From NCBI GenBank assembly GCA_030706745.1, contig JAUZNX010000022.1, forward strand, positions 1 through 40,921: DNA of 40,921 bases, in the 5' to 3' direction. Shown here one piece after another: positions 15,928 to 35,911 of the stretch. The number at the start of each line of letters is the position of its first letter. Position 1 is the first letter of the stretch. Source of the DNA: Bacteroidota bacterium (lineage in GTDB: Bacteria; Bacteroidota; Ignavibacteria; Palsa-1295). A program made the position numbers and the translations under genes. The notes below the pieces were generated by a model that was not told where the DNA came from, did not search any database, and worked only from the letters and a program-made list of their open reading frames with translations.

Positions 15928-16563
15928 CTAAGCCTTAACGATCTCCACTACCTGGTTCTTGGCTCCGGCGCATGAGCCGCTGACCAGTATCAAGTTCTGA
16001 TCGGCCACGATTCTGACGACTCGCAAATTCCGCGTCGTGATCTGTTTGCCACCCATGCGACCACCCATACGCTGCCCCTTGAAGACGCGCGACGGATAGC
16101 TTGACGAGCCAATTGATCCCGGCGCGCGCTGGCGGTCTGATTGACCGTGCGTCGATTGTCCAATACCACCGAAATGGTGACGCTTGACGACGCCCTGAAA
16201 GCCACGACCCTTTGAGGTCCCGACGACGTGCACGATATCGCCCTCAGCGAAGACATCCGGCACCTTAATTTCTGCTCCGGGAGCAAAGGCCGCGATTTTC
16301 TCCTCCGAGAATGATCGGACTTCCTTCACATACCGCTTCGGCGCGGTCCCAGCCTTATCGAAGTGTCCCTTCTCCGGCTTATTCACTTTCCGCTCCGCAA
16401 TGTCTTCGAAGCCAAGCTGGACAGCATCATAGCCATCGCGCGCCTTCGTCTTGACCTGCGTGACATAGCACGGTCCGACTTCCAACACGGTCACGGGGAC
16501 ATACTGCCCCTGATCGTCGAAGACGCCCGTCATGCCAACTTTTTTTCCAAATAGTGCGCTCAT
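15928..16563 (-). CDS. rplC: Ribosomal protein L3 (uL3)
   Basis: The 211-residue protein begins ALFGKKVGMTGVFDDQGQYVPVTVLE and has the signature TSKGRGFQGVVKRHHFGG, followed by the loop near the peptidyl-transferase centre (HGQSDRQRAPGSIGSSSYPSRVFKGQRMGG). It is an early assembly protein of the 50S subunit. Its start codon lies directly next to a 106-bp spacer filled by a repeat hairpin. Confidence 0.98.
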   Translation of the reverse strand: MSALFGKKVGMTGVFDDQGQYVPVTVLEVGPCYVTQVKTKARDGYDAVQLGFEDIAERKVNKPEKGHFDKAGTAPKRYVKEVRSFSEEKIAAFAPGAEIKVPDVFAEGDIVHVVGTSKGRGFQGVVKRHHFGGIGQSTHGQSDRQRAPGSIGSSSYPSRVFKGQRMGGRMGGKQITTRNLRVVRIVADQNLILVSGSCAGAKNQVVEIVKA

Positions 16564-16569
16564 TGTGTC

Positions 16570-16656
16570 AATTACGAATTACGAATTACGAATTACGAAT
16601 GCGCCATATCGGCTTTATTCCGAATTACGACCCATTCGTAATTCGTCATTCGTAAC
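16570..16656. repeat. Heptad-repeat hairpin between rpsJ and rplC
   Basis: The spacer starts with four copies of the 7-bp unit GAATTAC. Bases 16578-16601 pair with 16633-16656 with 22 of 24 matches, around a 31-nt loop that holds another copy of the unit. Similar repeat hairpins built on GAGTAAC units lie at 34377-34432 and 35181-35220. The element lies inside a transcribed essential operon, so it may affect mRNA processing or the relative expression of rpsJ and rplC. Confidence 0.8.
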
Positions 16657-16669
16657 TAATAATTAAGCG

Positions 16670-16972
16670 TCACACCTTGATTTCTACTTCCACGCCCGCC
16701 GGCAATTCAAGCTTCATCAGCGAATCGACAGTGCGGCTATTCGAATTCAAAATGTCGATGAGCCGCTTGTGGGCGCGGATCTCGAACTGCTCGCGGCTCT
16801 TCTTATCCACGTGCGGCGAACGGTTGACCGTATAGATCGACTTCTTTGTTGGCAGCGGAATCGGCCCAGACACGACGCAGCCGGTAGGCTTGACGGTCCG
16901 GATAATCTTCTCCGCGCTCTTGTCGATCAGGTTATGATCGTACGACTTCAGTTTGATTCGAATCTTCTGCAT
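16670..16972 (-). CDS. rpsJ: Ribosomal protein S10 (uS10)
   Basis: The 100-residue protein begins [23 protein letters not shown] and contains [40 protein letters not shown], diagnostic of uS10. Besides its place in the 30S head, S10 is NusE, a partner of NusB and NusG in transcription antitermination. It is the first gene of the S10 cluster and lies 78 bp after tuf, separated from it by a terminator-like hairpin. Confidence 0.98.
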
Positions 16973-17007
16973 GATCCCTTACCTTACCCCCTTCATCAGT
17001 GAAAGGG

Positions 17008-17042
17008 TAAAAGAAAGCGCGCATTCCGTTAAGAATGCGCGC
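17008..17042 (-). terminator. Terminator-like hairpin between tuf and rpsJ
   Basis: GCGCGCATTC (17017-17026), loop CGTTAA, GAATGCGCGC (17033-17042) is a perfect 10-bp stem. On the minus strand it is followed by a T-rich tract (TTTCTTTT), the form of an intrinsic terminator. It would stop or attenuate transcription between tuf and the S10 cluster, so rpsJ may have its own promoter or receive only read-through. Confidence 0.75.
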
Positions 17043-17050
17043 CTTGGAAA

Positions 17051-18259
17051 TTATTTCGTGATCTTGTCCACGACTCCGGCACCGACGGTACGACCGCCTT
17101 CGCGAATGGCAAAGCGGAGTCCCTCTTCCATGGCAATCGGGCTGATGAGCTCGATCTTCATTTGGACGGAGTCACCCGGCATGACCATCTCGACTCCTTC
17201 TGGGAGCGTCGCGACACCCGTCACATCCGTTGTGCGGAAGTAGAACTGTGGTCGATAGCCATTAAAGAACGGCGTATGACGTCCACCCTCTTCCTTCGAA
17301 AGGACATAGACCTTCGCTTCGAAGTTGGTGTGTGGCGTGATTGAACCTGGCTTCGCGATCACCTGACCGCGCTCGAGCTCGGTCTTTTCAACGCCGCGCA
17401 GGAGCAAGCCGCAATTGTCGCCAGCCTGACCCTCGTCAAGCTCCTTGCGGAACATCTCAACGCCGGTAACAACAGACTTTTTGTGTTGGCCAAGACCGAC
17501 GATCTCGACTTCATCACCGACGTGGACTCTTCCACGTTCAATACGACCCGTTCCGACCGTACCACGACCCGTGATCGAGAATACGTCCTCGATCGACATA
17601 AGGAACGGCTTATCGACATCGCGGACAGGAGTCGGGATATAGCTGTCAACCGCATCCATCAAATCGTAGATGCACTTCAGACGCGGATCGTCCGGAGTTG
17701 CAGCCGGATCGGAGCCTGCGTTGAGCGCATGAAGCGCCGACCCAGGAATAATCGGAATCTCATCACCAGGAAACTCATACTTGCTGAGCAACTCACGAAC
17801 TTCAAGCTCAACGAGCTCAAGCAGTTCAGGGTCAGCGGCGTCGACCTTGTTCATAAAGACGACAATACGGGGCACACCGACCTGACGAGCAAGTAGGATG
17901 TGCTCGCGGGTCTGCGGCATCGGGCCATCGGTTGCTGCTACAACAAGGATTGCACCGTCCATCTGCGCAGCGCCGGTGATCATGTTCTTGACATAATCGG
18001 CGTGACCTGGGCAGTCCACATGCGCGTAGTGACGGTTGGCCGTCTCATACTCGACGTGCGCGGTGGCGATTGTGATTCCACGGGCGCGCTCTTCCGGCGC
18101 ATTATCGATCGAGTCGAACGTGCGAACCTGGGTGCCCGGCATCTTTTTCGCCAGCGCCATGGTAATGGCGGCGGTAAGCGTGGTCTTGCCGTGATCAACG
18201 TGGCCAATGGTGCCTACATTGACGTGCGGCTTGGAGCGGTCAAATTTTGCTTTTGCCAT
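17051..18259 (-). CDS. tuf: Elongation factor Tu
   Basis: The 402-residue protein is a complete EF-Tu: P-loop [14 protein letters not shown] (residues about 18-25), switch [32 protein letters not shown] and SAL guanine-binding motifs, and the beta-barrel domains 2 and 3 ([25 protein letters not shown], ... [14 protein letters not shown]). It carries aminoacyl-tRNA to the ribosome. The start ATG at 18259 gives the standard [23 protein letters not shown] is not adjacent, unlike the classical str operon. Confidence 0.99.
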
Positions 18260-34288: not shown

Positions 34289-34362
34289 GGAGTGGTAGTT
34301 CAGCTGGTTAGAACGCCTGCCTGTCACGTAGGAGGTCGCGGGTTCGAGTCCCGTCCGCTCCG
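34289..34362 (+). tRNA. tRNA-Asp (GTC)
   Basis: A 74-nt cloverleaf is clear: acceptor GGAGTGG with CCGCTCC, D-arm GTTC-AGCTGGTTA-GAAC, anticodon stem CCTGC/GTAGG around CTGTCAC (anticodon GTC), T-arm GCGGG-TTCGAGT-CCCGT, discriminator G. The CCA end is not fully encoded. Confidence 0.97.
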
Positions 34363-34376
34363 CAGCCTGCAATGGT

Positions 34377-34432
34377 AACGAGTGATGAATTGCGAGTAAC
34401 GAGCTTCCTCGACTCGCCATTCATCACTCGTT
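34377..34432. repeat. Long imperfect hairpin after tRNA-Asp
   Basis: Left arm 34377-34403 and right arm 34408-34432 pair over about 24 bp with one mismatch and a 2-nt bulge around loop CTTC. The arms contain GAGTAAC- and AACGAGT-type units like those at 35181-35220, and resemble the GAATTAC hairpin at 16570-16656. It could act as a terminator for the tRNA transcript, although no clear U-tract follows. Confidence 0.75.
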
Positions 34433-34529
34433 GCACATTACTGATTCTTTTCTCACGTAACTTCTTCCCACTGACGCCGTCCCAATAACAAGCATCTTGC
34501 AGGACGCACATTTACACATTGGAGCAACC

Positions 34530-35162
34530 ATGAAGCTATTGAGACGATCGAGTATTTGGGGTGCCGCAGTAGCACTCGTCTTAGGCGCGGGCGTGATATC
34601 ATCGAGCTTGAACTCCTGCGCGACCCTCAACGCGCTGGCAGGACTTTCCCGCATTCAGTTCATGCTACAAAACGTCCAGAGTGTTCGGCTCGCAGGCATC
34701 GACGTGGCGAATAAGCACAGCGTTTCCGATTTTAGCGTAATGGACGGGATTAACCTGATGGGCGCGTTCTCTTCGGGGCACTTTCCACTGACCTTCACGC
34801 TGAATGTCGCGGCGAAGAATCCGAATGCGCCGAACGCAGCGTATGGCGCATTGCAGGTAACCGATTTTCCTTGGAGACTTCTGCTCGATGGGCATGAAAC
34901 GATCTCGGGCAACATCGGTGCACCGATTGGTGTCCCGGCCGGGGGCTCGACGGCAATTATGCCTCTGCAAGTCACAGTCGATCTCAAGCAGTTCTTTGCG
35001 AACCAGGGCTATAACGATATGATCAATCTTGCACTAGCGCTTTCGGGTCAGGGCGGATCCTCGCACATTCAACTGAAGGCCGTCCCAACCATGGCCACAC
35101 CGATTGGCAGCATGCGATATCCCGGCGAGCTGACAATCGTGAATACGGAATTCCGGTCGTAG
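34530..35162 (+). CDS. LEA-2/WHy-like lipoprotein
   Basis: Starting at ATG 34530 (GGAG 5 bp upstream), the 210-residue protein has a lipoprotein signal: basic KLLRRSS, a hydrophobic core, and the lipobox LNSC (Cys at about residue 31). The mature part resembles LEA type 2 domains: NVQSVRLAGIDVANKHSV, the NPNAP turn after a beta strand, a strand such as WRLLLDGHETISG, and the PAGGSTAIMPLQV edge. Bacterial LEA-2 lipoproteins sit in the envelope and are linked to stress or desiccation tolerance; the exact role is unknown. It lies between tRNA-Asp and cmk. Confidence 0.7.
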   Translation: MKLLRRSSIWGAAVALVLGAGVISSSLNSCATLNALAGLSRIQFMLQNVQSVRLAGIDVANKHSVSDFSVMDGINLMGAFSSGHFPLTFTLNVAAKNPNAPNAAYGALQVTDFPWRLLLDGHETISGNIGAPIGVPAGGSTAIMPLQVTVDLKQFFANQGYNDMINLALALSGQGGSSHIQLKAVPTMATPIGSMRYPGELTIVNTEFRS

Positions 35163-35180: not shown

Positions 35181-35220
35181 CGAGTAACGAGTTCGACTGA
35201 ACGAAATGACTCGTTACTCG
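35181..35220. repeat. Heptad-repeat hairpin before cmk
   Basis: CGAGTAACGAGT (35181-35192) and ACTCGTTACTCG (35209-35220) are perfect 12-bp inverted arms around a 16-nt loop. A further GTTACTC unit runs on to 35226. The cmk start codon lies 13 bp after the arm, so the hairpin sits in the cmk leader. Confidence 0.8.
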
Positions 35221-35233
35221 TTACTCAGACACT

Positions 35234-35911
35234 TTGCGCACCAACGGAATCATCATCGCGATTGACGGACCAACAGCATCCGGCAAAAGCACGACTGCAA
35301 AACAAGTCGCTGCACGGCTTGGCTTTCTCCATTTGAATACCGGCGCGATGTATCGCGCCTTCGCGCTGCTGGTCCGGCGACGGGACCATCACGGTCATGA
35401 TCCGGCTCGCGTCCATACCCTTATCGAGGAGGCCGACATCCGCTTCTCTCCTGCCGGGACCATCCAACTCGATGGCATCGACGTCTCGCGCGAAATTCAG
35501 GAGCCGGACATTGCACTGCTTGCCAGCGAACTTTCAACGAATCCGGAAGTCCGCGCGAAGCTGGTCGAGAAACAACGCCTGATCGGCAAGGATGGAGGTG
35601 TGGTCCTTGAGGGTCGTGATATTGGCACCGTTGTGTTTCCTGATGCGGAGCTAAAAATCTTTCTGGTCGCCGATGCATTAGTCCGCGCCAAGCGTCGCCA
35701 ATTGGAGATGGAGCGAATTGGCACCCATATGCCGCTCGAAGAGTTGCGCCAACAGCTCGAAGAGCGCGACCGCCGAGACAGCGAGCGTGCCATATCCCCG
35801 CTCCGCAAGGCGGATGACGCAATCGAGGTCGATACGACAAGTCTGACGATTGAGGGGCAGGTTGAACGGGTCTATGAGCTTGCTCTGGAAAAGAGCAGTC
35901 GATCGGTTTGA
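35234..35911 (+). CDS. cmk: Cytidylate kinase
   Basis: The 225-residue protein has the P-loop GPTASGKST (residues 12-20), LNTGAMYRAFALL, LEGRDIGTVVFPDAELKIFLVAD and RAKRR with the lid residues, all as in CMP kinase. It phosphorylates CMP and dCMP with ATP. The start is a TTG codon (35234), chosen because no ATG precedes the P-loop strand; the N-terminus before the strand is only a few residues, as usual. A repeat hairpin lies just upstream. Confidence 0.96.
   Translation: MRTNGIIIAIDGPTASGKSTTAKQVAARLGFLHLNTGAMYRAFALLVRRRDHHGHDPARVHTLIEEADIRFSPAGTIQLDGIDVSREIQEPDIALLASELSTNPEVRAKLVEKQRLIGKDGGVVLEGRDIGTVVFPDAELKIFLVADALVRAKRRQLEMERIGTHMPLEELRQQLEERDRRDSERAISPLRKADDAIEVDTTSLTIEGQVERVYELALEKSSRSV

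Follow-up and report, generated by a model that had tools for sequence, protein, structure and literature searches.

Heptad-armed hairpins in a Kapaibacterium-like genome: probable gene-less relatives of S23-bearing elements

The heptad hairpins described here are probably gene-less small hairpin elements, whose gene-bearing kin enclose a gene for an S23 four-helix-bundle protein (PF05635) and whose best known relatives are the intervening sequences (IVS) of 23S rRNA. The class is built from tandem words of 7 nt, sometimes 8 nt, arranged as inverted arms. It is dispersed in the genome, and its words turn over at fixed sites. Furthermore, S23 genes within such arms occur in loci of four phyla. 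The initial annotation of the window (the whole stretch of 40,921 nucleotides analysed here) missed this link to the S23/PF05635 genes, many of which lie inside such hairpins.

Three hairpins in intergenic gaps

The window is contig C22 of a genome of 3.81 Mb, and in it a heptad hairpin fills the 106-bp gap (16564-16669) between rplC and rpsJ. The closest named match of the L3 protein, at 93%, comes from a 'Candidatus Kapaibacterium' MAG, followed by Bacteroidetes and Ignavibacteriae MAGs. The features of the window that are relevant here are:

15928..16563, minus strand: rplC (50S ribosomal protein L3), flanking gene, also the query for finding relatives
16568..16666, minus strand: whole rpsJ-rplC hairpin as folded RNA, 42 pairs
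16579..16601: arm 1, GAATTAC heptads, ungapped inverted arm; the tandem AATTACG run covers 16570-16600
16633..16655: arm 2, inverted GTAATTC/GTCATTC heptads, ungapped inverted arm; the tandem ATTCGTA run covers 16634-16655
16670..16972, minus strand: rpsJ (30S ribosomal protein S10), flanking gene, identity 98-100% in six congeners
34289..34363, plus strand: tRNA-Asp(gtc), flanking gene
34377..34432: heptad hairpin after tRNA-Asp, GAGTGAT/GAATTGC/GAGTAAC units, 21-nt arms, 95%, z = -10.5
about 35181..35226: heptad hairpin before cmk, GAGTAAC units, z = -4.3
35234..35911, plus strand: cmk ((d)CMP kinase), flanking gene

The reading of the rpsJ-rplC gap as a GAATTAC heptad hairpin, already made in the initial annotation, is borne out by the arms, the tandem runs and the fold. 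The RNA of the operon strand forms one long stem of -49.7 kcal/mol (z = -10), and none of 200 shuffles was equally stable. The related hairpins reported after tRNA-Asp and before cmk are real as well. That the neighbouring gaps are mostly below 45 bp holds roughly, with exceptions of 78, 97, 219 and 262 bp, the ORF starts being uncertain. The suggested attenuation site found no support, as no terminator-like site (a G+C-rich stem followed by a T run) was present within 16500-17100. At gathering score, the sole Rfam 15 matches in the window were its two tRNAs, with the heptad hairpins left uncovered, and both a terminator and a known RNA family were dropped as candidates for the rpsJ-rplC hairpin. 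An RNase site, the other role proposed for it, is plausible only by analogy with the excision of the Coxiella IVS by RNase III (PMC4990558).

When the stem was compared with that of the congener G001, 34 of the 42 pairs were unchanged, five were changed on one side and kept, two were broken and one was gapped. No pair had changed on both sides, and the conservation of the stem is weak evidence. Compensatory base changes between the two genomes, read by eye, failed in the folded register and were dropped.

All three hairpins have the inverted terminal arms of an S23/IVS-type element, and they carry tandem 7-nt words, the same in both arms, with the tRNA-Asp hairpin being degenerate (lag-7 match 0.54). 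Their cores contain no S23/PF05635 ORF. The spacers between the ungapped arms, only 14-31 nt, are too short for an S23 gene, and the hairpins are therefore called gene-less forms and not IVS. Nor do they have the 23S rRNA location that defines an IVS in the strict sense, lying instead between protein and tRNA genes. G001 also has hairpins both after tRNA-Asp and before cmk. The two GAGTAAC hairpins of the window lie around the ORF 34497-35162, and in G001 they appeared as a wide pair, a possible composite element.

Dispersal and turnover of the heptad words

Five words were searched as three tandem units in 61 genomes: GARTNAY, GTGCTNA, TAGGGTN, GTAAGAR and GARRTAT (words 1 to 5). The genus set comprises our own genome and six congeners (G001-G006), with the following numbers of three-unit matches:

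GARTNAY: own 50, G001 18, G002 53, G003 34, G004 5, G005 1, G006 13
GTGCTNA: own 14, G001 17, G002 3, G003 20, G004 5, G005 2, G006 8
TAGGGTN: own 0, G001 10, G002-G005 0, G006 10
GTAAGAR: G003 83; own, G001, G002 and G004-G006 0
GARRTAT: own 22, G001 19, G002 0, G003 11, G004 1, G005 0, G006 1

The family thus extends well beyond the three loci first noticed. In our genome, the 50 GARTNAY matches occupy 36 places, and the reversed patterns gave zero matches for all five words. At 15 of the 36 places the match overlaps a hairpin with a score of at least 12 within 170 nt. The idea of a heptad palindrome family, put forward earlier, stands with regard to dispersal, varying words and presence or absence in operon gaps, but the other 21 places show no clear palindrome, being one-sided or having too degenerate a partner. 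One-sided arrays are therefore common too.

A scan for hairpins that did not depend on any word recovered 35 hairpins in 580,921 bases of our genome. Among those with a lag match of at least 0.6, lag 7 came first in nine hairpins and all other lags together in six; at a looser score, lag 7 led in 10 of 19 periodic hairpins. In stretches from the six congeners (310,336 bases), lag 7 led in 9 of 11. Across eight genomes outside the genus, just 2 of the 11 periodic hairpins had lag 7 in the lead, so heptad bursts are patchy, and 50 kb of E. coli held no lag-7 hairpin (0/1).

Further words in our genome are GAAATAT/GAAGTAT, GGATGAA, TAGGGTT and GATAGTG. As many as 17 of the 22 GARRTAT matches are one identical 21-mer, GAAATATGAAGTATGAAATAT, which indicates that arrays are copied between places and that slippage is not their sole source. 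In three similar, apparently paralogous stretches (L003, L005 and L016), one-sided heptad arrays sit at roughly matching positions, and heptads may therefore also travel within larger duplicated sequence. A perfect 34-bp hairpin (L117, 2626-2701) has GGATGAA and GGATGAG units that follow the same order in its two arms, which suggests that the arms were copied from each other.

Reversed words were matched in some of the other genomes. For word 1 these were G001 (1), G007 (3), G008 (2), G017 (7), G022 (17), G036 (8), G048 (3), G053 (1) and G054 (17), for word 2 G012 (4) and G041 (11), for word 4 G003 (1), G025 (46), G043 (1) and G060 (2), and for word 5 G001 (12), G002 (1), G003 (7), G006 (1) and G025 (9). 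Word 3 gave none. Reversed word 5 is an unfair control, because it also matches rotations of GAAGTAT. The reversed matches of the remaining words point to additional heptad words elsewhere.

Outside the genus, the five words are rare or absent. TAGGGTN is confined to G001 and G006 among the 61 genomes, GTGCTNA recurs only in G007 (18 matches), and GTAAGAR in G014 (3) and G022 (6). GARTNAY has matches in ten more of the 61 genomes and GARRTAT in three.

Congeners differ at the same sites, as the comparison of sister strains proposed at the outset revealed. In the rpsJ-rplC gap, our genome and G001 have GAATTAC hairpins, G003 has GTGCTTA, G006 TAGGGTA and G002 a weak TAGGGTC form; the gap is without heptads in G004 and holds an unrelated insert in G005. 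This insert (L032) is another repeat, with ends like GTCATTGCGAGGAG and CTCCTCGCAATGAC. Two further loci (L150:2444 and L135:14168) have ends like those of this gap repeat, and similar ends were found in our own genome. The rplB-rpsS gap measures 141 bp in G005, where it contains a GTGCTTA hairpin, 8-9 bp in G001-G004 and G006, and 21 bp in our genome. The G005 hairpin is a clear insertion into a gap of the S10 operon; no target-site duplication, as expected of a MITE of a DDE transposon, was seen at this one site by eye. In G006, a GTACCGA hairpin lies in the tuf-rpsJ gap.

In G003 (L205, contig C27, about 1700-1800), four GTAAGAA units on one side face four TTCGTAA units on the other. This pair with different arm words is possibly a half-exchanged element. 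Two contigs of G002 (C25 and C26; L203 and L204) both end inside GAGTAAC arrays of at least 17 units, and assemblies are thus probably broken by tandem heptads.

S23 genes within heptad arms

A hairpin of G003 (L246) was the first case found to enclose a small reverse-strand gene, and because of this gene PF05635 (23S_rRNA_IVP) was searched in nine genomes. The search yielded 30 copies over the cut-off, 27 of them with readable loci, L246 being additional. Most of these 27 loci and L246 are flanked by inverted tandem heptads. The two arms of a copy share the same word, and the words usually differ between copies within one genome. GTGCTGA, GATAGTG, GAGTAAC and GARRTAT recur as arm words across genomes; further ones are TAGGGTA, AGTCCTA, GAATTAC, ATGTAAA, GAATTAT and GAATTGT. 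The two S23 genes of our genome that exceed the cut-off lie in GATAGTG arms (L256) and GGATGAA arms (L265). Neither is thus a gene-bearing copy with GAATTAC arms, the weak matches L273 and L280 being excluded from this count.

A uniform test was applied to 100 S23 loci, in which an ungapped inverted repeat (+1/-2) was sought in 300-bp flanks and a pair score of at least 13 was required. The strict version adds a lag-7 or lag-8 match of at least 0.6. The family set has 27 loci, 26 of them testable (L272 lies at a contig edge), the class set 28 of 84 listed matches, and the phylum set the 30 best-scoring loci of 198 genomes, some from the same class. Plasmid loci came from a tblastn search with 25 records, of which 16 were tested. 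Outside the family, the samples comprise only those loci that scored best or were otherwise listed. The loci that passed were:

Family: 23/26 at a score of at least 13, 23/26 strict
Class: 14/28 at a score of at least 13, 12/28 strict
Phylum sample, best-scoring loci: 13/30 at a score of at least 13, 10/30 strict
Plasmids, mostly cyanobacterial: 11/16 at a score of at least 13, 11/16 strict

Over all sets, paired arms were present in 61 of the 100 loci (56 strict), and 39 remained under the pair threshold. The best lag among the 61 was 7 in 51 loci, 8 in eight and another in two. A lag-7 or lag-8 match of at least 0.6 was present at any score in 73 of the 100 loci. In the other 27 the best pair had no 7- or 8-nt period at any score; L270 and L257, the clear exceptions within the family, are examples. 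Period 8 is best in the S23 loci L262, L289, L303, L304, L305, L308, L310, L323, L324, L365, L374 and L376. These loci belong to several lineages, and a polymerase footprint fixed at 7 nt does not account for their arms.

Such pairs were far rarer in the controls. Swapping arms between S23 loci gave scores of at least 13 in 39 of 3000 cases, and random cores in 0 of 600 (maximum 12). Other genes gave 2 of 150, with best lags of 9 and 6, and none of 150 in the strict version; these control genes were 44 from Trichormus (200-bp flanks), 39 from E. coli, 30 rplC genes and 37 window ORFs (300-bp flanks).

Gene-bearing and gene-less forms can occupy corresponding places in sister species. In the tRNA-Leu gap, GATAGTG arms enclose an S23 gene in our genome (L256), whereas G001 has a gene-less GAGTAAC hairpin (L334). 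Before der, our S23 gene in GGATGAA arms (L265) compares with a gene-less GTAAGAA hairpin in G003 (L237); the latter precedes a 436-aa ORF taken as der by eye, and the upstream neighbours differ. Across stretches totalling 1.29 Mb, only two heptad hairpins had a core of at least 120 bp, and neither core held an S23 gene; one S23 gene that lies in these stretches (G048, C6:60936) has a pair score of 14 with a best lag of 6. G005 is the only congener without a PF05635 match and has the fewest heptad matches (three over the five words), yet it holds the cleanest gene-less insertion. A resident S23 gene is thus unnecessary for the persistence of a gene-less hairpin.

Armed S23 genes on plasmids were found in Nostoc, Anabaena, Calothrix, Geminocystis, Pseudanabaena, Stanieria and Picosynechococcus, and at one locus each in Gemmatirosa (Gemmatimonadota, period 8), Azospirillum (Alphaproteobacteria) and Riemerella (Bacteroidota). 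Strong arms were not found in four cyanobacterial plasmid copies of similar sequence, which have weak arms only, and the Calothrix copy L321 has a very short pair at best. Three cyanobacterial S23 genes lie among CRISPR genes (L315 698-1066, L327 704-1063 and L323 692-1048), twice at cas6/cas4, as in Anabaena, where S23 lies between these two genes, and once, in Picosynechococcus, between cas10 and a cmr3-family gene, there with period 8. With their 7- or 8-nt arms, these loci look like insertions into cas operons.

The two S23 proteins of our genome over the cut-off match TIGR02436 as well as PF05635, and for one of them the solved chain 2rld_A, from an entry with five chains, was a match at E 4e-32.

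Origin of the hairpins and their known relatives

A plausible course of events can be put together from these observations and from the Coxiella IVS. A hairpin would land in an intergenic gap, be transcribed with the operon and fold into a dsRNA stem. By analogy with the Coxiella IVS, RNase III of the host could cut this stem, which may be why the host tolerates the hairpin. The arms would grow and homogenise by 7-nt slippage and by copying from arm to arm, thereby turning over the word, and one-sided arrays would represent half copies or copies that have decayed. The S23 protein probably binds the hairpin, as RNA or as single-stranded DNA, and would act for the element, either in cis or, on gene-less copies, in trans.

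The Coxiella burnetii 23S IVS resembles this class in its stem-forming terminal inverted repeats and in the S23/PF05635 ORF, which is optional in the loop, as well as in the tandem heptamers beside the ORF, their variable number and the tolerance of the host (PMC4990558). It has a 28-bp terminal stem and an S23 ORF with tandem GACAGAT heptamers upstream, the heptamer number varies by strain, and RNase III excises the IVS; according to its authors, S23 is probably not made in vivo, and the functionality and origin of IVS "remain unclear" more than 25 years after their identification (PMC4990558). Unlike in the Coxiella IVS as described there, both arms are heptad-built here and the words usually differ between copies. 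Moreover, 23S IVS sit in rRNA helices, namely helix 45 (PMC4990558) or helices 25 and 45 (PMC2801512), whereas the window hairpins sit between protein and tRNA genes and carry no gene.

Heptamer repeats have been reported from several other bacteria. GGGAATC heptamers form 70 and 75 inverted pairs in two Xanthomonas genomes (Rehm 2015, PMC4692102); unlike here, this is a single G-rich word that was studied as a G-quadruplex repeat, and S23 goes unmentioned in the part of that paper drawn on here. The P6b hairpin of the Nostoc tRNA-Leu intron (Costa 2002, Olsson 2012, via PMC3488679) likewise consists of degenerate heptanucleotides that pair into a stem and differ in copy number, but it is a single intron locus, again with S23 unmentioned in the text consulted (PMC3488679). 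TAACTGA direct repeats of Beggiatoaceae, Cyanobacteria and Bacteroidetes (MacGregor 2015, PMC4679880) are similar in being intergenic heptamers with indels in 7-nt steps and a patchy spread, also near ribosomal protein genes. They differ in having one word, with 169 direct sets and one indirect set in the genome studied (PMC4679880). Searches of the open PMC library, which lacks most subscription papers and preprints, listed none besides the Coxiella IVS paper in which S23 genes are joined to inverted heptad arms.

The main rival to the S23 element is that slippage and hairpins came first. Polymerase slippage and inverted copying would make the arrays and hairpins, and S23 would be a separate element that prefers hairpin loops and landed there later. 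We consider this unlikely, even with the many hairpins without a gene, the 21 of 36 GARTNAY places that look one-sided and the position of 23S IVS in rRNA helices (PMC4990558, PMC2801512) in its favour. Among long simple repeats, heptamers are also the most frequent in many bacteria, and a 7-nt polymerase footprint has been proposed (Mrazek 2007 via PMC4679880, PMC4692102). Slippage of this kind does not explain, however, why S23 copies within a genome mostly differ in their word, why some have 8-nt words, not to be expected from a footprint fixed at 7 nt, or why the Coxiella IVS has heptamers within rRNA (PMC4990558). The identical 21-mers at 17 places speak for copying and not for slippage only. 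Chance landing would, moreover, be needed for most S23 copies of the family, yet only 10 lag-7 hairpins are found per 581 kb. As a purely regulatory hairpin of the S10 operon (a terminator, an attenuator or an mRNA-stabilising stem with heptads from slippage), the rpsJ-rplC structure would account for its strong RNA fold and its conserved position in our genome and G001. This is nonetheless very unlikely, given the lack of a terminator-like site, the other words, other sequence or other insert of five further congeners in the same gap, and the similar structures in unrelated gaps and around S23 genes.

Mobilisation by known enzymes fares no better. REPs are short palindromes of intergenic DNA, and REP/REPIN, associated with RAYT (Y1), resemble the heptad hairpins in being multicopy, differing in that they have no 7-nt period. 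Our genome has seven Y1_Tnp matches, two of them (L116 and L117) with heptad arrays in their 1.5-kb flanks. That heptad hairpins are REP sequences moved by the Y1 tyrosine transposase is barely credible all the same: the heptads near L116 and L117 form no one-word pair around the gene, and the long inverted pairs in the 500-bp flanks of six of the seven Y1 genes include none with a 7- or 8-nt period of at least 0.6. The Y1 genes are thus flanked by other palindromes and the S23 genes by heptad pairs, and a RAYT/REP origin was set aside as largely refuted on these seven flanks. The REP-like palindromes themselves mostly differ per Y1 locus (L111-L117), for example one of 48 nt at L111 and AATGTAGCGCATGCTTTAGCTTGC at L114; L116 and L117 share one. 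Copying of the hairpin RNA by a reverse transcriptase, with S23 acting like the DGR accessory protein Avd, would fit the resemblance of PF05635 to Avd (PMC10053308) and the match of one S23 protein, from G007, to the Avd models DivGenRetAVD and bAvd, weak and under the cut-offs. It is quite improbable, and was set aside, since the reverse transcriptase domain PF00078 was not found in our genome (99.5% complete) and matched in only three of 12 genomes searched, two of them over the cut-off.

A wider form of the S23 element reading is possible, and we put it forward tentatively. S23 might be the core protein of an unrecognised minimal mobile element with rewritable word ends, in which the heptad or octad word is common to both arms and usually different between copies. 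Heptamers of Kapabacteria, Cyanobacteria, Xanthomonas and others, together with the 23S IVS, might then be its footprints. If S23 and the heptad hairpins are one system, S23 should bind heptad hairpins and heptad bursts should trace to gene-bearing copies, while element ends set by word identity, and not by a fixed sequence, would become open to study. Tandem heptads may, on a practical level, break assemblies. For the excess of 7-nt repeats in bacteria, the polymerase footprint is the only guess offered in the parts of the cited papers used here. On the same premise of one system, the functionality and origin of the IVS and this 7-nt excess would become testable together.
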